A DNA stretch of 46,784 nucleotides, taken from NCBI GenBank assembly GCA_017464815.1, contig JAFTYI010000048.1:1-46784 (forward strand), read 5' to 3'. A program made the position numbers and the translations under genes. Source of the DNA: Bacteroidaceae bacterium. GTDB taxonomy: Bacteria > Bacteroidota > Bacteroidia > Bacteroidales > Bacteroidaceae. Of this stretch, positions 13,377 to 43,827 are shown in pieces; position 1 is the stretch's first letter, and every line of letters begins with the position of its first letter. The notes beneath the pieces are model-generated. The model worked only from the letters and a program-made list of their open reading frames with translations, did not search any database and was not told the origin of the DNA.

Positions 13377-13448
13377 ATTTAGGCACGGATTACACGGATT
13401 ACGCGGTTATTAATTATCCGTGTCAATCCGTGTAATCCGTGCCTAAAA
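13377..13448. repeat. Inverted-repeat element B (acggat type) between GH51 and GH97
   Basis: The arm TTAGGCACGGATTACACGG is mirrored by CCGTGTAATCCGTGCCTAAA around a short centre that adds a second GCGG/CCGTG unit. It fills most of the 92-bp gap between two same-strand genes, so it sits inside a likely transcript and could act as an attenuator or mRNA-end stabiliser. Confidence 0.8.
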
Positions 13449-16041: not shown

Positions 16042-17049
16042 TCACTCTTCATTATATATCACCTCCAGCAACGTCTGCCCCACGGCCTTTAAAGTGGACC
16101 GGTCGATGTGCTCCATATTGTCGTTCACCGTATGCCACGTGTCGCCGAAACTGGAGAGTTCGCTATCGGTCATCATGGGGATGATGTCGATGCAGGGGAT
16201 GCGTGCGATGCGGTTGATGGGCAAATGGTCGTCGGTGACGTAACCACCACGTTGCTTAGGGAAGTAGTTGCCGTATCCGGCGGCATGAGCCTTGCCCCAC
16301 ACCTTGTCGACGATGGCCGAGGCGTACTCCTCGGAGAATCCCTCCTTGTAGAAGGTTGCCCCCTTGCCTCCCACCATGTCGAGCAGGATGGCAAATCGGG
16401 CGTTGTAGTCGGTCACATGAGGAGTGCGTGCCCAATATTGGGAACCTAAGCACCAACTACCTTCGCTACTCAGTTCATTCATGAATTGAGGGACTCCATA
16501 GTCTTCCACATCAAAAAAGATGATGTCCACGCCCAATGCAGGTTGTTGCTGCTGTATCTGGCGGGCCACCTCCAGCAACACTCCCACCCCGCTGGCTCCG
16601 TCGTTGGCTCCGTTGACAGGAGTGTGGTGATTCTTCTCATCCGGGTCATTGTCCGCCCACGGGCGGCAATCCCAATGGGCACAGAGCAACAGGCGCTTGC
16701 GGTTTCCGAGTTGAAACGAGCCAATGATGTTGCGCATCTGCAACGGTGTGCCGTCGAAGGCGTCCACCACATCGCACTGCTCGTCCACCTGCGCGCCGAA
16801 GCGTTTCAACTGTTGCACCAAATAATCTCCACACTCACGGTGGGCTTCGCTATTGGGCACACGTGGGCCGAACGCCACTTGGCCGGCCACATAACTGTAG
16901 GCACTATCGGCATCGAACGCGGGCACATTCACAACGCGGGCGTTGCTCCCACCGGCCTGTCCGGCAGGTTTGCTACCCACTCCGACGCAACACGTCAACA
17001 GGATGGAAAAGGCCGCCCACACAAGGATTTGGATGGTATGTCTGTTCAT
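16042..17049 (-). CDS. M28-fold lipoprotein, probable glutaminyl-peptide cyclotransferase
   Basis: The product of about 335 residues starts with a lipoprotein signal (SILLTCCVG). The metal-binding pattern is that of type II (animal-like) glutaminyl cyclases: HWDCRPWADNDP, Asp in GANDGASGVG, Glu in FDVEDYG and His in WHTVNDNMEHID. These single-zinc enzymes convert N-terminal glutamine to pyroglutamate in the periplasm, where Bacteroidetes use them because Sec-exported proteins often start with Gln after signal cleavage. A second ATG at 17055 is two codons upstream; either may be used. An M28 aminopeptidase is the alternative. Confidence 0.85.
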   Translation of the reverse strand: MNRHTIQILVWAAFSILLTCCVGVGSKPAGQAGGSNARVVNVPAFDADSAYSYVAGQVAFGPRVPNSEAHRECGDYLVQQLKRFGAQVDEQCDVVDAFDGTPLQMRNIIGSFQLGNRKRLLLCAHWDCRPWADNDPDEKNHHTPVNGANDGASGVGVLLEVARQIQQQQPALGVDIIFFDVEDYGVPQFMNELSSEGSWCLGSQYWARTPHVTDYNARFAILLDMVGGKGATFYKEGFSEEYASAIVDKVWGKAHAAGYGNYFPKQRGGYVTDDHLPINRIARIPCIDIIPMMTDSELSSFGDTWHTVNDNMEHIDRSTLKAVGQTLLEVIYNEE

Positions 17050-17081
17050 AGTCATTCAGTCACTTATCAGAATAAGGTGCA

Positions 17082-17089
17082 AATATACA
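17082..17089 (-). promoter_or_regulatory. -7 box upstream of the M28 gene
   Basis: TATATTTG on the minus strand matches TAnnTTTG, about 33 bp before the ATG at 17049. Confidence 0.6.
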
Positions 17090-17262
17090 CTATTTTATCG
17101 AAAAAGCATCGATTGTTAACGATTGATAACTAAGTTTTTTTTCACAAATCACCCTTACGCAAGAGAAAAAGGTGAAATATCCATCGGAAAAGCAACGTTT
17201 TTTTTCCACACAAAAACAGGCGGCACTTCGCTCACCTCACAAACGCCTTGAGCCCCACTTAA

Positions 17263-17394
17263 GGATGAGGCGACCTTAATTCAAGGATAAGTAACCTCCA
17301 TTTAAAAATGAAGCGACCTTAGCCTTGGGATGAAGCGACCTTAGCCTTGGGTTAAGGCTACCTTAACCCTAAGATGGGTGAAGACGGGCAGAAA
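17263..17394. repeat. 22-bp tandem array, locus 2, upstream of argR
   Basis: Six rows of 22 bases start at 17263, 17285, 17307, 17329, 17351 and 17373. Rows 17307 and 17329 agree at 21 of 22 positions, with core ATGAAGCGACCTTAGCC. The rows contain AAGG...CCTT half-palindromes, and GGGTTAAGG...CCTTAACCC at 17350-17370 is a perfect one. The same register continues into the two ARG-box-like sites at 17395 and 17417. Confidence 0.8.
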
Positions 17395-17432
17395 TGAATA
17401 TTTATGCAACTCAAGATGTATATTTATGCATT
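17393..17432. promoter_or_regulatory. Two candidate ARG boxes upstream of the arginine operon
   Basis: TGAATATTTATGCA (17395-17408) and TGTATATTTATGCA (17417-17430) each differ from the classical TGAAT-wwww-ATTCA ARG box by one or two bases, and their centres are 22 bp apart, close to the 21-bp spacing bound by an ArgR hexamer. A weaker third copy, TGTATATTATTGCA, overlaps the promoter region at 17490-17503. The position 5' of argR itself suggests autoregulation of the operon by arginine; this is inference. Confidence 0.6.
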
Positions 17433-17513
17433 TTAAGGGACGATTTTTGCCTTTTTCTGCATAAAACCATAAAAATATAGGGTGATTTTTGTATATTATT
17501 GCATTTTTATTTG

Positions 17514-17521
17514 TACTTTTG
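17514..17521 (+). promoter_or_regulatory. -7 box of the arginine operon
   Basis: TACTTTTG matches TAnnTTTG and lies 26 bp before the argR ATG. A TTTG at 17488-17491 is 22 bp upstream, slightly long for the -33 spacing. Confidence 0.65.
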
Positions 17522-17547
17522 CGGCTCATTTGGAATAAACATACAAG

Positions 17548-18027
17548 ATGAAGAAGAAAACCAACCGACTCGACACCATCAAGATGCTGATTTCGAGCAG
17601 AGAAATATGCAGTCAGGACGAACTGCTGGAGTTGCTGAGACGAGAAGGCCTGGGAGTGACCCAAGCCACCCTTTCGCGCGACTTGAAACAACTGAAGGTG
17701 GCCAAGGCTTCAAGCATGACGGGAAAATACGTGTATGTGCTTCCCAACAGCACCGTCTATCGCCGCTTGCCAGAGAAGGACAGCCCTGTGCAGGAGATGA
17801 TGAAATATACGGGATTCGTCTCTATAAACTTCTCGCACAACATTGCCGTCATCCGCACACGCCCGGGATACGCCAGCAGTTTGGCATACGATATTGACAA
17901 TCAAGACCTGAGCGCAATCGTGGGAACCATCGCCGGAGACGACACCATCATGCTGGTCATCCGCGAAGGAGTGACGCATGACGAGGTGCGCCACGCCTTG
18001 CATCCCATCATTCACAATCAGATTTGA
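17548..18027 (+). CDS. argR: Arginine repressor ArgR
   Basis: The 159-residue protein has the N-terminal winged helix of ArgR (SQDELLELLRREGLGVTQAT, then LSRDLKQLKVAK) and the C-terminal hexamerisation and arginine-binding domain with GTIAGDDTIMLV. It senses arginine and represses biosynthesis genes. It heads the operon with GNAT, argG, pspC-like, argC and argD genes and has two ARG-box-like palindromes about 120 bp upstream, so it probably controls its own transcription. Confidence 0.95.
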   Translation: MKKKTNRLDTIKMLISSREICSQDELLELLRREGLGVTQATLSRDLKQLKVAKASSMTGKYVYVLPNSTVYRRLPEKDSPVQEMMKYTGFVSINFSHNIAVIRTRPGYASSLAYDIDNQDLSAIVGTIAGDDTIMLVIREGVTHDEVRHALHPIIHNQI

Positions 18028-24224: not shown

Positions 24225-24375
24225 GAGGCTGTGTCAAAAAGCCCTCTTTTCATTTTTTAGACGCGGATGACGCGGATGACGCAGATAAATTATAACCTAT
24301 TGGAGTATAATAATCAAGAAAAATCCGCGTCATCCGCGTCATCTGCGTCTAAAAAGTTAATTTTGACACACCCTC
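24225..24375. repeat. Element C: MITE-like gcggat element with terminal inverted repeats
   Basis: GAGGCTGTGTCAAAA (24225-24239) and TTTTGACACACCCTC (24361-24375) are inverted with one mismatch and bracket a second, larger inverted repeat made of TTTTTTAGACGCGGATGACG-like arms, each with three GCGGAT-type units. GTGTCAAAA-type ends resemble ends of some Bacteroidales insertion sequences, so this may be a non-autonomous mobile element; no clear target duplication was seen. Confidence 0.65.
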
Positions 24376-24404
24376 ATTTTTTTGAGGCCGAAAGCGTACG
24401 TTTT

Positions 24405-24478
24405 TTAGGCACGTATTTCGCGGATTTTGCGGATAATTATTAAATTGAATCCGTGTAATCCGCGAAATACGTGCCTAC
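24405..24478. repeat. Inverted-repeat element D (acggat type)
   Basis: TTAGGCACGTATTTCGCGGA and its complement TCCGCGAAATACGTGCCTA face each other around a roughly 25-base AT-rich loop, just before the stop of the convergent Na/Pi symporter gene. It is directly next to element C, so the 290-bp gap between rubredoxin and symporter genes is almost all repeat. Confidence 0.8.
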
Positions 24479-28872: not shown

Positions 28873-29802
28873 ATGCGCAAAGTAATAGGCATCGGAGAAA
28901 CCATCTTCGACATCATCTTCCAAGGCGGACAACCCACGGCCAGCGTGCCGGGCGGCTCCACCTTCAACAGCATCATCTCGCTCGGACGCACGGGCACACC
29001 CGTCACCTTCATCAGCGAGACAGGAAACGACCACGTGGGCAACATCATCCTCGATTTCATGCGCGAGAATGGTGTCTCCACCGACTACGTGCAGGTCTAC
29101 CCCGACGGCAAGTCGGCCATTTCGCTGGCCTTCCTCAACGAGCAGAGCGATGCACAATACCAGTTCTACAAGGACTATCCCGCCTGCCGCCTGGAGGTGG
29201 ACTTCCCTACCATCGAGAAGGACGACATCGTCATCTTCGGCTCCTACTTCGCCCTCAACCCCGTGCTTCGCGCCAAGGTGAGCGAATTTCTCGACTATGC
29301 CCGCCGGCAGGAGGCACTCATCTACTACGACGTGAACTTCCGCTCGACCCACGCCGGCGAGGTGGTGAAGCTGACGCCCACCATCATCGAAAACCTCGAG
29401 TATGCCGACATCGTGCGCGGCTCAGAGGACGACTTCCACTACATGTACGGCCTGACCGATGCCGACGCCATCTATCGCCAGAAGGTCTCCTTCTACTGCC
29501 CGCAATTCATCTGCACCCACGGCAGCAAGGGCATCAGCCTCCGCACACGCGAACTCAGCAAGGAGTACGCCGTGCCCGCCATCACCCCCGTGAGCACCAT
29601 CGGCGCGGGCGACAACTTCAATGCCGGCATCCTCTTCGGCCTCCTGCGCTACCGCATCCGTCGCGACGACCTCCCCACCCTCACCGAGCGCGATTGGGAC
29701 GACATCATCCGTTGTGGCACCGACTTCTCCACCCATGCCTGCATGAGCATCAACAACTACGTCTCCCGCGAATTCGCCGAGGAGTATGCAAGGAGGCGCT
29801 GA
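28873..29802 (+). CDS. PfkB-family carbohydrate kinase
   Basis: The 309-residue protein is a ribokinase-fold kinase. The N-terminal VPGGSTFNSIISLGRTG segment contacts the substrate, and TIGAGDNFNAGILFG near residue 247 carries the anion hole GAGD with the catalytic aspartate. The sugar is not predictable by eye (fructose, ribose or nucleoside are possible). It lies 14 bp after kdsD and is the last gene before a terminator, so it probably acts in the same phosphosugar economy. Confidence 0.88.
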   Translation: MRKVIGIGETIFDIIFQGGQPTASVPGGSTFNSIISLGRTGTPVTFISETGNDHVGNIILDFMRENGVSTDYVQVYPDGKSAISLAFLNEQSDAQYQFYKDYPACRLEVDFPTIEKDDIVIFGSYFALNPVLRAKVSEFLDYARRQEALIYYDVNFRSTHAGEVVKLTPTIIENLEYADIVRGSEDDFHYMYGLTDADAIYRQKVSFYCPQFICTHGSKGISLRTRELSKEYAVPAITPVSTIGAGDNFNAGILFGLLRYRIRRDDLPTLTERDWDDIIRCGTDFSTHACMSINNYVSREFAEEYARRR

Positions 29803-29859
29803 GAAGACGGCACCTCTTCCCTTTGTAAACATTCCGTCACACACGGTGTAAAGAAACAG

Positions 29860-29910
29860 AAAAAGCCCGCTCCCCATTCCCCTTACTCTTGGGATGAGGC
29901 GGGCTTTTCT
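29860..29910 (+). terminator. Terminator of the LOG-kdsD-pfkB operon
   Basis: AAAAGCCCGC (29861-29870) pairs with GCGGGCTTTT (29899-29908); the loop has a further partly paired CCC...GGG segment. It is followed by a T-rich stretch. Confidence 0.8.
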
Positions 29911-30034
29911 TCTGAACAGCACCTTCTCGCTTTGGCATTAAGAATCAACCACTTACACACCAAATGAAATTCTTCCCATTTTTCGTGCGACGAGAAATCT
30001 GCGTGCATACGGGCGATTCTCGCGCGACCAGTTT

Positions 30035-30069
30035 TGCATATTTATGCAGTGCGAGCGTATAATTATGCA
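30035..30069. promoter_or_regulatory. Two ARG-box-like palindromes in a gene-free region
   Basis: TGCATATTTATGCA (30035-30048, a perfect palindrome except its centre) and CGTATAATTATGCA (30056-30069) have centres 21 bp apart, the spacing of ArgR double operators, and resemble the pair upstream of argR. A single copy, TGCATATTTATGCC, lies at 30306-30319. CACTTTTG at 30068-30075 could be an imperfect -7 box. No gene starts within 800 bp on the plus strand, so a role is unclear. Confidence 0.45.
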
Positions 30070-30129
30070 CTTTTGCATCTTCCCAAAGGCTTTCACGCTC
30101 CCCTTTTTAGGGCACTTATCGAGGTACCG

Positions 30130-30261
30130 CTCCTAAACGTCCGATGAAGAACTCCTAAACGTCCGCCGGAATTCTCCTGCACACGCCACGATTCTCAGGT
30201 GCACACGGGCGGAAGTTCTCCTACGCTTCCGCGGATGCTTAGGAGCGGGCGGGCGGAAACG
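30130..30261. repeat. 22-bp tandem array, locus 3
   Basis: Six rows of 22 bases start at 30130, 30152, 30174, 30196, 30218 and 30240. The first two share their first 14 bases (CTCCTAAACGTCCG), and four of six begin CTCCT. The rest are G+C-rich and diverged. The sequence on both sides (29980-30129 and 30262-30420) looks related in composition but the register is less clear. No ORF with recognisable homology is present. Confidence 0.75.
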
Positions 30262-30420
30262 CCCTTTTCAACCAAAATCTCAGTCTCCCCCGCCTCCTTC
30301 CCTCATGCATATTTATGCCCAAAAAACACCCGCCGCCCCGCCTTCCATCCCGATGAAATGGGGGAAAATAGCCATGCAGGATTCTTTACCGCATGATGTA
30401 AAGGATTAGATATTTTTAAT

Positions 30421-30695
30421 GTAAGTTCGATATAAGGAGCGGGGTAACCTTAACTCCTCCCCTAAGTTAGGGGAGGTGGCCGATAGGCCGGAGGAGTGTG
30501 TGAAAAATAGGACTTTTATGACAGACTCCCTCCCCCTTTCGGGGTAGCCTACGGCCTCCGTCGCACAGGGCACTGTGCTCCCCTCGCAAGGCGCGAATTG
30601 ACATCGAGTCAATTCTCTATCGGCCTTGCTACGCCCTCTAACTTAGAGGGAGAGTTTTAGTTACTTCTATACATCATTCCTTATATCGGACTCAC
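30421..30695. repeat. 275-bp palindromic element with 18-bp terminal inverted repeats
   Basis: GTAAGTTCGATATAAGGA (30421-30438) and TCCTTATATCGGACTCAC (30678-30695) are inverted and match at 16 of 18 positions. Inside are arms of the type CTCCCCTAAGTTAGGGGAG and CTCTAACTTAGAG, plus hairpins GCACAGGGCACTGTGC and AATTGACATCGAGTCAATT. It carries no ORF and looks like a MITE or a structured intergenic repeat related to the one at priA. Confidence 0.7.
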
Positions 30696-33936: not shown

Positions 33937-34719
33937 ATGAAGACAAAGCACATGCTCGGATGGCTGGTGGCAGCCACACTGTTATCGGGTTGTTCATCCA
34001 TCAGCCGCGACAAGGAGGACGACTTGATTATCATCACCGACAAAGGACTGGACATCGACGACGACAAAAAGTTTGAACGGCCTGACGACAAACCCAGCAA
34101 ACCCGTTCAGCCCGGCGACTCGCAACTGGGCGGAATCGGGGACACGGTTATCATCGGGGACACGGTTGTCCCAGGGGGCACGATTATCCCTGGGGACACA
34201 ATTGTCACAGGGGGCGAAGCGGGTTCTATGGGCCAGCACCTCCTGGCGACGCGCTACATTGACGACAATCAGACGGACACCACGCTGTTCGAAGGCAACT
34301 ATGGAACCATCGAGTCGCACATCGTGATACGCTCGGGCGGAATCTTGCAGATTTTCGACAGGCACATCATGCACCAGCATGCCACCATCACCATCGACCA
34401 AGGTGGAAAACTGTGGGTAAGCGGATGCCTCCAACATGTGGAGCTCACCATCAAGGAAGGAGGCACACTGGAGCTTAATGGCGAAGGCTGCATCGTTTTA
34501 GCAAGTCGGGGAAGTCTGCATCTGGAGCCTAACTCCATCATCAGATGCACAGGCATACTCACCCCCGACAACGACGGAAACGGCAACATCGGAAGCACCG
34601 GCAACGACGGAATCACCGGCAACGACGGATGGAACATCTATGCACCGTCAGCCGACCCCATATCATCGGAAATTGAGAAATTGGATTCTCTAGAGATACA
34701 ACAAATGATAGTTCATTAA
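33937..34719 (+). CDS. Lipoprotein of unknown function with short tandem repeats
   Basis: The 260-residue product has a lipobox LLSGC (Cys 19). Residues about 67-92 are tandem copies of a G-D-T-V/I-I/V pattern encoded by repeated GGGGACACGGTT-like units. The following 130 residues (for example IVIRSGGILQIFDRH and TIDQGGKLWVSGC) have the alternating hydrophobic and Gly pattern of a right-handed beta helix. No known family was recognised. It shares an operon with the gene 20 bp downstream. Confidence 0.7.
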   Translation: MKTKHMLGWLVAATLLSGCSSISRDKEDDLIIITDKGLDIDDDKKFERPDDKPSKPVQPGDSQLGGIGDTVIIGDTVVPGGTIIPGDTIVTGGEAGSMGQHLLATRYIDDNQTDTTLFEGNYGTIESHIVIRSGGILQIFDRHIMHQHATITIDQGGKLWVSGCLQHVELTIKEGGTLELNGEGCIVLASRGSLHLEPNSIIRCTGILTPDNDGNGNIGSTGNDGITGNDGWNIYAPSADPISSEIEKLDSLEIQQMIVH

Positions 34720-35943: not shown

Positions 35944-35995
35944 AGGCGCGGATTACGCGATTCACTCATCCGTGAAATCCGCGTAATCCGCGCCT
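35944..35995. repeat. Inverted-repeat element E (gcggat type)
   Basis: AGGCGCGGATTACGCG (35944-35959) and CGCGTAATCCGCGCCT (35980-35995) are perfect inverted 16-mers around a 20-base loop, between the convergent secreted-protein and valS genes. A bidirectional terminator role is likely. Confidence 0.85.
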
Positions 35996-41493: not shown

Positions 41494-43698
41494 ATGAACA
41501 GAGTCCTTATCACCTTCCTGTTTTCGGCATTTGCCTTGTTGGGCATGTCGGAAGAGCAACGTGCCTCCATCAGACACTTGACAAGACAAAACGGCCTCAC
41601 AAACGACCGGGTCACGGTGTTGGAGCAAGACCATCATGGCTACATCTGGGCAGGCACGGAAAACGGATTGAACCGCATCAGCGGACACGAAGTCTACACG
41701 TGGGAATACCCCGGCCATCCGTTGCACAACATCCACGTGAGCGACATCGAAACCGACGAGAAGGAAAACTGCCTGTGGATTTTCACCCCCCAAGGATTGG
41801 CCGGATGCATCGACTTGGCACAAAACCGGCTGATTGAGCATGCGCCCGATGAAGCCGACTCGCTTCTCTATTTTCATCACAAAGGGCAACTCTACATGTG
41901 GCAATACGGCCCCACCCGACGGTGTGTCCGGACACGAATAAACAAAGGCCGGCTGGACACCCAAGTTTTCGACAAGGAGGTCTCCGACATCCACACCGAT
42001 GAAGAAGGCGGCGACTGGCTATTGACCGGGCGGGGATTGTACCTGAACGGACTTGAAGAAAAACTGCGAGGGTCGGACAGTGTGACCCACATCACCACCT
42101 ATCGAAACATCTGCCTGGCCGTGACACCAAACGGAGTGCTTGCCTACAACCACTCACGGCGCGTCGTGCGTCGCACACCTTTTCCAAAGACCTATCGCAA
42201 CGCCAACCAATGCACCGACTTGGCCACATGGGGCGACCAGCTGCTCATCTTCACTCCTGAAAAGACAATCGCCTACCACATTCTGGAAGGCACCTTCTCT
42301 GCTCCGACGAACTGGCAATTGAAGAATGGCCAAACCCTCCCCCAAAACGGCAAACATGTCTACGCTTACGACGGACAAGGGAAACTTATGCGGTTCGGAG
42401 AGGGAGGCGCCGTGCATTCGTTGCAACTGATGCCGACAGAGGTCGCCCGCCAGTCAAGCGGGAGGATGCCACAGGTCTCAGTCATGAACGCCACCACCGA
42501 AGCCATTGCCACCTACGGCAACGGTCTATACCTCCTCAATGTGGAGACGGGGAAAAGCACCCATTTCCGCCAAGAGGAGCCACACGGTTTTGTTCGCGAC
42601 AATCGCATACACTCCCTGCTGACCGACCACACCGGTTGCCTGTGGATAGCCACCGAACAAGCCGGAGTCACCTGTCTGCCTCCTATTGAAAAGAGCGAAA
42701 CACAGGCAATCCTGTCCGCCAAAAACGCTCCTCACCCACGCATCAACCTCGTGGTTGTCGACGGCGAAGAGCGTCTCATGAGCACCGATGAAATGGAACT
42801 TTCTTACACTCACAACAATGTAGAGTGGCACTTCTCCTGCATGGCATACGACCAGCTTGATGCAACACAATACCAATACTACCTGACAGGAGTGGACAGC
42901 ACCTGGCAATCTCCCACCCACAACCACAAAGCCATCTACAAGGACTTGCCACCCGGGCGATACCAATTTCACGTGAGAGCCAGCCTCGATGGTCTACATT
43001 GGGGAAGCGAAGCCACCCACACCATCGTGATAGACGAACCATGGTGGAGCCAATGGCCGGCCTATCTGGTCACGCTGGCTATCTTTGCGGCAATGGGGCT
43101 GTTCCTCTACTTCATCGTACACCAATTCATCCACCCCGAAAGAGCGACAAGCGACAAAGGGCAAGCGTCAAGCAATGAACAACAGACCTCAAGCAACAAA
43201 GGGCAAGCGCCAAACAACGAACAAAAAGAGCCAAGTAACGAGCAGCAAGCGTTAAGTAACGAGCAGCAAGCGTTAAGTAACGAGCCACAACCCATCAGTC
43301 ACAATCCGCAAACCATGCGTAGCGTAACGACCGATGAAATCGAAAAAAGCACCGTCCCCACCCTTACGGCCAAGGAGGTCCGTTTCAAGCAACAACTGGA
43401 AGCCACACTGGCCGAACACATCGAGGACACCGACTTCACCACCGAGCAATTTGCCACACTGATGGGGTTGAAGCGCACCCAATTCTACAACAGGGTGAAA
43501 CACATCACAGGTCTGTCGCCCATAGAGCTGACACGCAAAGCACGTCTGGAGCACGCCGCCCATTTGCTGATAGAGTCCGACTTGAACATCGACGAAGTGC
43601 GCGAACGTTGCGGATTCACCAACTCCACCAATTTCTACAACTACTTCAAGCAACATTTTGGCATGACTCCTCGCCAATATCGGCAAAGTGCCCGATAA
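41494..43698 (+). CDS. Membrane one-component regulator: sensor propeller, Y_Y_Y, TM, AraC HTH
   Basis: The 734-residue protein begins with a signal or anchor (ITFLFSAFALLG), then Reg_prop-type propeller repeats (NDRVTVLEQDHHGYIWAGTE, VRDNRIHSLLTDHTGCLWIA) and a Y_Y_Y domain. A membrane helix lies at about 522-545. After a linker of 7-residue SNEQQAL-type repeats comes an AraC-type HTH (about 640-734). HTCS proteins of Bacteroidetes have histidine kinase and receiver modules between the helix and HTH; these are absent here. It may couple a periplasmic ligand directly to DNA. The start ATG 41494 is supported by the -7 box. Confidence 0.85.
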   Translation: MNRVLITFLFSAFALLGMSEEQRASIRHLTRQNGLTNDRVTVLEQDHHGYIWAGTENGLNRISGHEVYTWEYPGHPLHNIHVSDIETDEKENCLWIFTPQGLAGCIDLAQNRLIEHAPDEADSLLYFHHKGQLYMWQYGPTRRCVRTRINKGRLDTQVFDKEVSDIHTDEEGGDWLLTGRGLYLNGLEEKLRGSDSVTHITTYRNICLAVTPNGVLAYNHSRRVVRRTPFPKTYRNANQCTDLATWGDQLLIFTPEKTIAYHILEGTFSAPTNWQLKNGQTLPQNGKHVYAYDGQGKLMRFGEGGAVHSLQLMPTEVARQSSGRMPQVSVMNATTEAIATYGNGLYLLNVETGKSTHFRQEEPHGFVRDNRIHSLLTDHTGCLWIATEQAGVTCLPPIEKSETQAILSAKNAPHPRINLVVVDGEERLMSTDEMELSYTHNNVEWHFSCMAYDQLDATQYQYYLTGVDSTWQSPTHNHKAIYKDLPPGRYQFHVRASLDGLHWGSEATHTIVIDEPWWSQWPAYLVTLAIFAAMGLFLYFIVHQFIHPERATSDKGQASSNEQQTSSNKGQAPNNEQKEPSNEQQALSNEQQALSNEPQPISHNPQTMRSVTTDEIEKSTVPTLTAKEVRFKQQLEATLAEHIEDTDFTTEQFATLMGLKRTQFYNRVKHITGLSPIELTRKARLEHAAHLLIESDLNIDEVRERCGFTNSTNFYNYFKQHFGMTPRQYRQSAR

Positions 43699-43745: not shown

Positions 43746-43827
43746 AGGCACGGATTACACGGATTAACGCGGATTTATATTTACCTGAAGGTTATAATAT
43801 CCGCGTTAACCCGTGTAATCCGTGCCT
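43746..43827. repeat. Inverted-repeat element F (acggat type)
   Basis: Arms of 29 bases (43746-43774 and 43799-43827), starting AGGCACGGATTACACGG, match with one mismatch around a 24-base AT-rich loop. It lies between the convergent regulator and TonB-receptor genes, fitting a bidirectional terminator. Confidence 0.85.

Follow-up and report, generated by a model that had tools for sequence, protein, structure and literature searches.

A 22-bp tandem array upstream of argR in a Bacteroidaceae genome is probably a copy of a dispersed intergenic repeat adjoining the operator

Upstream of the arginine repressor gene argR, a row of 22-bp units is followed by two ARG-box-like palindromes that also lie 22 bp apart, which raises the question whether the array is part of the argR operator or a repeat of another origin. 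In the window, the whole stretch of 46,784 nt (46.8 kb) analysed here, we favour the second answer with a probability of about 0.85: the array is one copy of a repeat that is non-coding, scattered between genes, made up of 22-bp quasi-palindromic bricks and found in one genus so far, and it adjoins the argR operator without belonging to it. This reading is carried by the recurrence of the array, its intergenic location, its presence or absence at orthologous sites, and the conservation of the operator independently of it. The features of the locus are as follows.

16042-17055, minus strand: M28 peptidase gene, divergent from argR, with the array in between
17197..17291, plus strand: possible decayed element remnant (weak match, 17.8 bits, to the element segment before and into the array)
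17265..17286, plus strand: decayed array unit, 15/22 to the unit
17287..17307, plus strand: degenerate 21-base row that interrupts the 22-bp register (spacing 43 = 22+21)
17308..17329, plus strand: array unit ATGAAGCGACCTTAGCCTTGGG
17330..17351, plus strand: array unit with the same letters as the 17308 unit
17352..17373, plus strand: diverged array unit, 14/22 to the unit
17395..17408, no strand: ARG-box-like palindrome TGAATATTTATGCA, 18.0 bits, only in the window genome among the four argR leaders compared
17417..17430, no strand: ARG box TGTATATTTATGCA, 17.7 bits, kept in three relatives
17417..17547, plus strand: conserved argR operator/promoter block, 83-88% identity over 117-132 aligned columns (L054, L190, L191)
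17532..17545, no strand: leader ARG-like box directly before the argR start codon, 11.3 bits
17548..18027, plus strand: argR, arginine repressor (Pfam PF02863 and PF01316)

Downstream of argR follow a GNAT-family gene and the genes for argininosuccinate synthase, a semialdehyde dehydrogenase (argC-like) and a class III aminotransferase (argD-like). Judged by ArgR, Bacteroidaceae MAGs from the ruminant hindgut are the closest named relatives (L054 95%, L058 92%, L056 91%, L055 86% and L057 80%).

For the array itself, the unit occurs twice without mismatch, at 17308 and 17330, and Tandem Repeats Finder returned 17308-17365 with a score of 88 and a period of 22. The strongest self-match of 17263-17394 is at lag 22 (0.564), followed by lag 44 (0.386). 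At lags 15-40 in 17056-17547, the best 66-base self-match was 45; 1000 dinucleotide shuffles averaged 30.3 and reached 37 at most, so that none (0/1000) equalled the array. The 22-base rows that the first-pass annotation had placed at 17263-17373 are therefore real, though not in strict register, which the 21-base row interrupts. On folding, the unit at 17352..17373 forms a 9-pair hairpin together with the bases before it. The annotation also had the array running on to the operator in phase with the palindromes, and neither part held. The row starting at 17373 is not a unit, and the array ends near 17377; the palindromes share with it only the 22-bp spacing, and their rows match the unit in best rotation at 9/22 (17395) and 8/22 (17417), no better than shuffled letters (mean 9.27 for the letter-shuffled 17417 row).

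ARG boxes were scored with a symmetrised matrix. Its training set was the box that immediately precedes the argR start codon in 73 of 75 relatives from outside the genus (L059-L133). The two palindromes described earlier at 17395 and 17417 are present, 22 bp apart, and are the top two matches in the window, and a third similar stretch at 17490 reached 3.3 bits versus their 18.0 and 17.7. An ArgR hexamer would fit two boxes spaced by about 21 bp, and for this reason the two palindromes are, judged by their sequence, most likely an ArgR operator pair. The box at 17532..17545 corresponds to the one found in argR leaders of Bacteroides and Prevotella.

Operator and array behave differently in the relatives. 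The block 17417-17547 is 86% identical over 131 columns in L054, 83% over 132 in L190 (genome G009) and 88% over 117 in L191 (sister genome G008). Box 17417 lies at -131, -131 and -128 in these leaders, respectively, with one base differing in L190. Box 17395 has no counterpart in any of the three, the best sites 10-40 bp upstream of the conserved box scoring -7.5, -13.5 and 4.7 bits. Box 17417 is thus most likely ancestral and box 17395 probably a local gain; L190 holds further strong ARG-like sites farther upstream, e.g. at -214 (19.4 bits). As for the array, L054 gave nothing longer than 8 bases in the 401 bp examined upstream of argR. L190 has one-unit matches of 29 and 31 bases (77-79%), and L191 has matches of 17-27 bases (81-94%) on the opposite strand, which are the array module of a complete element there. 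With both strands searched, no same-strand full counterpart of the array was found upstream of argR in L054, L190 or L191. Lack of array conservation in close relatives, named beforehand as evidence against a link with the operator, was hence seen in part: the array as such is conserved in none of the three, and two of them hold another member of its family.

The array recurs elsewhere in the genome. BLAST of 17255-17385 against the own genome gave 59 matches at E<=10 and 35 at E<=1e-4, counts that include the query itself, overlaps and both strands of some places (40 of 50 candidates were scored). The cluster, matrix and element counts given below refer to the window and 63 stretches picked for an array or element match, 39 around array matches and 24 around element copies or ARG-like sites. 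A simple ORF caller based on codon usage placed all 41 clusters with at least two units between genes, with one extending 5 bp into a called gene; the orientations of their neighbours are mixed. One consensus is common to 59 units outside anchored elements (26 loci, window included) and 28 units inside them, and four of the 26 outside loci start with GTTAACAAACCTTAG. Array matches at E<=1e-4 occur in 5 of 15 genus genomes (own included) and in 5 of 251 family genomes, all of this genus, with the best 2-3 candidates per genome scored in the family-wide searches. A different array (L035) occupies an orthologous site in G000, G007 and G008, where, read by eye, the 22-bp period is kept and the bases are changed; at the orthologous site in G002, G006 and G009 it is absent. 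This pattern indicates that arrays are inherited and lost without any operator. The comparison suggested by the first-pass annotation, whether the period persists while bases change, accordingly came out positive at the L035 array and not for the array at argR.

A larger element came to light when 11 array stretches proved alike beyond the array. A 531-bp stretch of L043 gave 78 matches in the own genome, internal repeats included; anchoring on the conserved core gave 35 matches, one of them false (L009), and hence 34 copies, to which two unanchored copies (L143 and L144) are added. Fourteen of the 34 measure 528-530 bp, fourteen 579-583 bp, two 513 bp and one 569 bp, and the lengths of three were misjudged by the script. 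The left end reads TTTACAn7GTAATAAATC and the right end TTTCTTTACA...GAAATGTTTACA, and conservation falls steeply some 210 bases to the right of the anchor. Three brick types occur as alternative middles. The right end is preceded by the 22-bp array, a module whose recognisable units are lost in some copies, among them the one in the window. The element is thus a dispersed, multi-copy, non-coding, intergenic sequence of <1000 bp with internal tandem bricks, a leader and a tail. Of 15 genus genomes (own included), 7 were found to carry it, and a family-wide search of 251 genomes, with two candidates per genome scored, likewise found it in 7, all of the same genus.

The element resembles a MITE in its dispersal. 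Read by eye, the left ends (TTTACAn7GTAAT) and right ends (GAAATGTTTACA) are not inverted repeats. The longest flank match, taken as a sign of target-site duplication, averaged 5.00 bp in 31 own pairs versus 4.81 bp in mismatched pairs, L138, L139 and L150 being left out because the script had misplaced their right end. Because neither terminal inverted repeats nor a target-site duplication was seen, the element is not filed as a MITE; no longer copy, such as a related autonomous transposon would be, came up among the stretches examined. In an empty-site comparison at L136, the gene before the element is followed by a different element type in G008 and by none in G007 and G002, and the downstream flanks differ. 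In this pair, L136:2002-2529 and L202 (G008) show the same gene followed by a 528-type element and by a 513-type middle, respectively. Brick modules seem to be exchanged at this fixed site.

A plasmid or phage vehicle was sought by similarity, with no match at E<=1e-5. One IMG/VR contig carries the element. On this contig, which is classed as viral, the whole element lies at L222:10625-11195, and its array slot, read by eye in the direction of the adjoining gene, holds a hairpin followed by a T run next to that gene's end, as though the array had given way to a terminator.

The window itself contains a second member of the family, with three ARG-like boxes.

29824..30402, minus strand: 579-bp element, 22 bp after the stop of a pfkB-family gene, with no clear 22-bp units in its array slot
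30035..30048, no strand: ARG-like box of the window element, 16.0 bits
30056..30069, no strand: ARG-like box of the window element, 15.6 bits, 21 bp from the 30035 box
30306..30319, no strand: third ARG-like box of the window element, 13.6 bits

The five best ARG-matrix matches in the 46.8-kb window are the palindromes at 17395 and 17417 followed by these three boxes, and after mononucleotide shuffling of the window (20 replicates) at most one match of at least 13 bits was left. All 34 anchored copies have two or three matches of at least 9 bits at fixed positions, the pair in 34 and the third box, at +83, in 32; the pair is spaced 19 bp in the 528 class and 21-22 bp in the other copies. Elements, which make up 19.4 kb of the 448 kb of own stretches examined, hold 89 of 99 matches of at least 13 bits, a count in stretches picked for matches, with overlaps kept and hand-set bounds for L143 and L144. 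With up to one mismatch, the pattern TGYATAWWTATRCA occurs at 119 places in the own genome versus 2 for the reversed control, at least 50 of the places being exact. Of the sites of this type in the examined stretches, anchored elements account for 98 and the two unanchored copies for 6, which leaves 5 at other places. Three genus genomes that lack the element have either no exact copy of the pattern or a single one, a number not exceeding that of the controls; these exact counts are not comparable with the 119, for which one mismatch was allowed. Strong ARG-like boxes outside recognised elements were seen at L155:2001-2055 and L156:1557-1570, possibly in decayed elements; the L155 boxes have a DUF4143/AAA gene on one side and an HNH endonuclease gene on the other.

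The last of the earlier readings, that the ARG-like sites belong to the array family and are not ArgR sites, is right in one respect, as the array and ARG-like boxes are modules of one element. For box 17417 it falls, since this box is kept in leaders that lack the array there; both boxes at argR match a matrix built from other genera.

ArgR is accordingly predicted to bind at many places outside its own operator, in the element. In a Pfam scan, none of 17 element-neighbour proteins belongs to an arginine-biosynthesis family, nor does any of 3 proteins beside isolated ARG-like sites, 3 of the 20 in total matching no family; the element boxes are therefore not an ordinary arginine regulon. In an ARG-box scan of carA loci, the best sites reached 9.9 bits (G010) and 5.7 bits (G012), the 9.9-bit site lying within an open reading frame, so the matrix evidence is not extended by the carA loci. 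The carbamoyl-phosphate synthase small chain (PF00988) was not found in the element-bearing genomes G000, G002, G007, G008 and G009 (79-91% complete) and was found in G010 and G012. Tentatively, and at somewhat less than even odds, we propose that each copy of the element, of which one ruminant-gut Bacteroidaceae genome has at least 34, holds two or three genuine ArgR operators. The element would thereby distribute predicted repressor sites across the chromosome, one copy even lying upstream of argR in a sister genome; ArgR would act as a host architectural factor in its movement or upkeep, as at cer, or be titrated and redeployed by it. If ArgR does bind the element boxes, most of the predicted strong sites of a metabolic repressor would lie within a selfish-looking repeat, which would bear on how repeats recruit host DNA-binding proteins and how far titration of a regulator by repeats is tolerated. 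The array question itself probably has an ordinary answer, a dispersed repeat beside a normal operator; the surprise is the near-consensus predicted ArgR sites in dozens of copies.

Could the element have been put to use at argR? An ancestral insertion upstream of argR may have decayed, leaving an array, and possibly box 17395, that now modulates argR transcription. The 17.8-bit match of 17197-17291 to the element segment before the array speaks for such an origin, but it is weak and partly consists of array bases. A complete 513-type element with its own ARG-like pair stands upstream of the argR operator in the sister genome G008 (L191:815-1328), but its array module is on the strand opposite to the window's array; G009 adds the one-unit array match. 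Moreover, the order of modules in the element puts the ARG pair before a forward array, not after it, and box 17417 is present in L054, which has no element in its 401 bp. Box 17395 has TGAATA like the argR leader boxes, whereas element boxes mostly have TGC or TGT. We consider this history possible but unlikely. Since a family member lies upstream of argR in three of the four leaders compared (window, L190 and L191), the array may still contribute to argR regulation.

Among the 30 copies of the element with a called neighbour on the array side, 19 turn that end towards a gene 3' end, nine of them within 33 bp, and 11 towards a 5' end, always at 123 bp or more. On the left side, with 31 copies counted, 23 face a gene 5' end, at 133 bp or more in every case, and 8 face a 3' end. 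This orientation suggests either targeting to gene ends or removal of promoter-damaging copies. Folding of seven arrays, the window's on both strands, gave z below -2 in 6 of 8 sequences, and the other two (z -1.18 and +0.50) had no strong structure. The bricks would thus be inverted-repeat DNA able to fold on transcription. Because of these foldable bricks and the leaning of the parent element to gene 3' ends, the likeliest effect of an array would be one on transcript ends, REP/BIME- or BrickBuilt-like, or else none, as in a tolerated repeat; the brick module may be a tolerated or mildly useful 3'-end structure. The array at argR would then be a surviving or separate copy that lies beside the operator by chance.

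That the array instead gives rise to a structured transcript, or terminates transcription of a gene beside it, is improbable: the window array folds well on both strands (z -2.91 and -3.92), but Rfam gave no match in 17000-17560 up to E=1, no intrinsic terminator pattern was found in 17050-17560 (array region) or in 29780-30440 (the window's element), and both flanking genes are transcribed away from the array, with no called gene ending at it. Least probable is the extended or decayed operator row of the first-pass annotation, with the 22-bp rows as weak ARG boxes onto which ArgR spreads from the strong pair; the row spacing equals that of the two boxes and helically repeated sites would suit a multimeric regulator, but the rows are absent from the 25 best ARG-matrix matches of the window, the palindromes resemble the unit no more than shuffled letters do, dozens of other gaps between genes contain these units too, and relatives keep the operator without the array, of which none of the three has a same-strand full counterpart.

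Other repeats occur in the window. Rows of 9 bp (such as GACGCGGAT, ATCCGCGTC and CACGGATTA) form a second recurring short repeat, and 21-bp and 18/36-bp tandem repeats lie inside long ORFs at 43143-43285 and 34138-34215.

761-787, 857-876, 13384-13441, 24260-24473, 35968-35992 and 43749-43775: 9-bp-row repeat

Our preferred reading, a dispersed brick repeat beside a normal operator, can be set against known systems; among the open-access papers listed, none besides those on the systems below describes anything like the element, and a description elsewhere is quite possible. REP/BIME sequences of enterobacteria are short quasi-palindromic extragenic units leaning to gene 3' ends. Compared by description, the bricks here are likewise short, quasi-palindromic and extragenic with a tendency towards gene 3' ends, and differ in the strict 22-bp head-to-tail period of their array. 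In cer-type accessory sequences, ArgR and PepA serve Xer recombination; the element is similar in having an ARG box distant from the end of a non-coding sequence and different in having two or three boxes and chromosomal dispersal. Compared with ArgR operators, the element boxes share the 14-bp palindrome core, which fits the matrix from 73 relatives, and mostly a paired spacing of 21-22 bp outside the 528 class, whereas these predicted boxes lie beside unrelated genes and the 528 class keeps its 19-bp spacing.

BrickBuilt is the nearest described kind of repeat and PINSR is another, both set beside the element by description. PINSR of the Prevotella intermedia/nigrescens group is a 188-bp, intergenic, clade-restricted repeat with 177 and 184 copies and without described function in the portions consulted (Naito et al. 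2015, PMC4755523). By that account, the element here is likewise intergenic, clade-restricted and amplified, and PINSR differs in its length of 188 bp and in that these portions make no mention of bricks or ARG boxes. BrickBuilt of Porphyromonas gingivalis consists of tandem 23-nt bricks with a leader and a tail in 19 intergenic copies, some of which are arrays without leader or tail, and has a narrow host range and terminal inverted repeats (Klein et al. 2015, PMC4596501). Both share tandem bricks within a longer intergenic element that has a leader and a tail. The element here differs from BrickBuilt in its 22-bp bricks, in the other brick types in its middle, in ends that are not inverted repeats, in its genus, and in carrying two or three ARG-like boxes.
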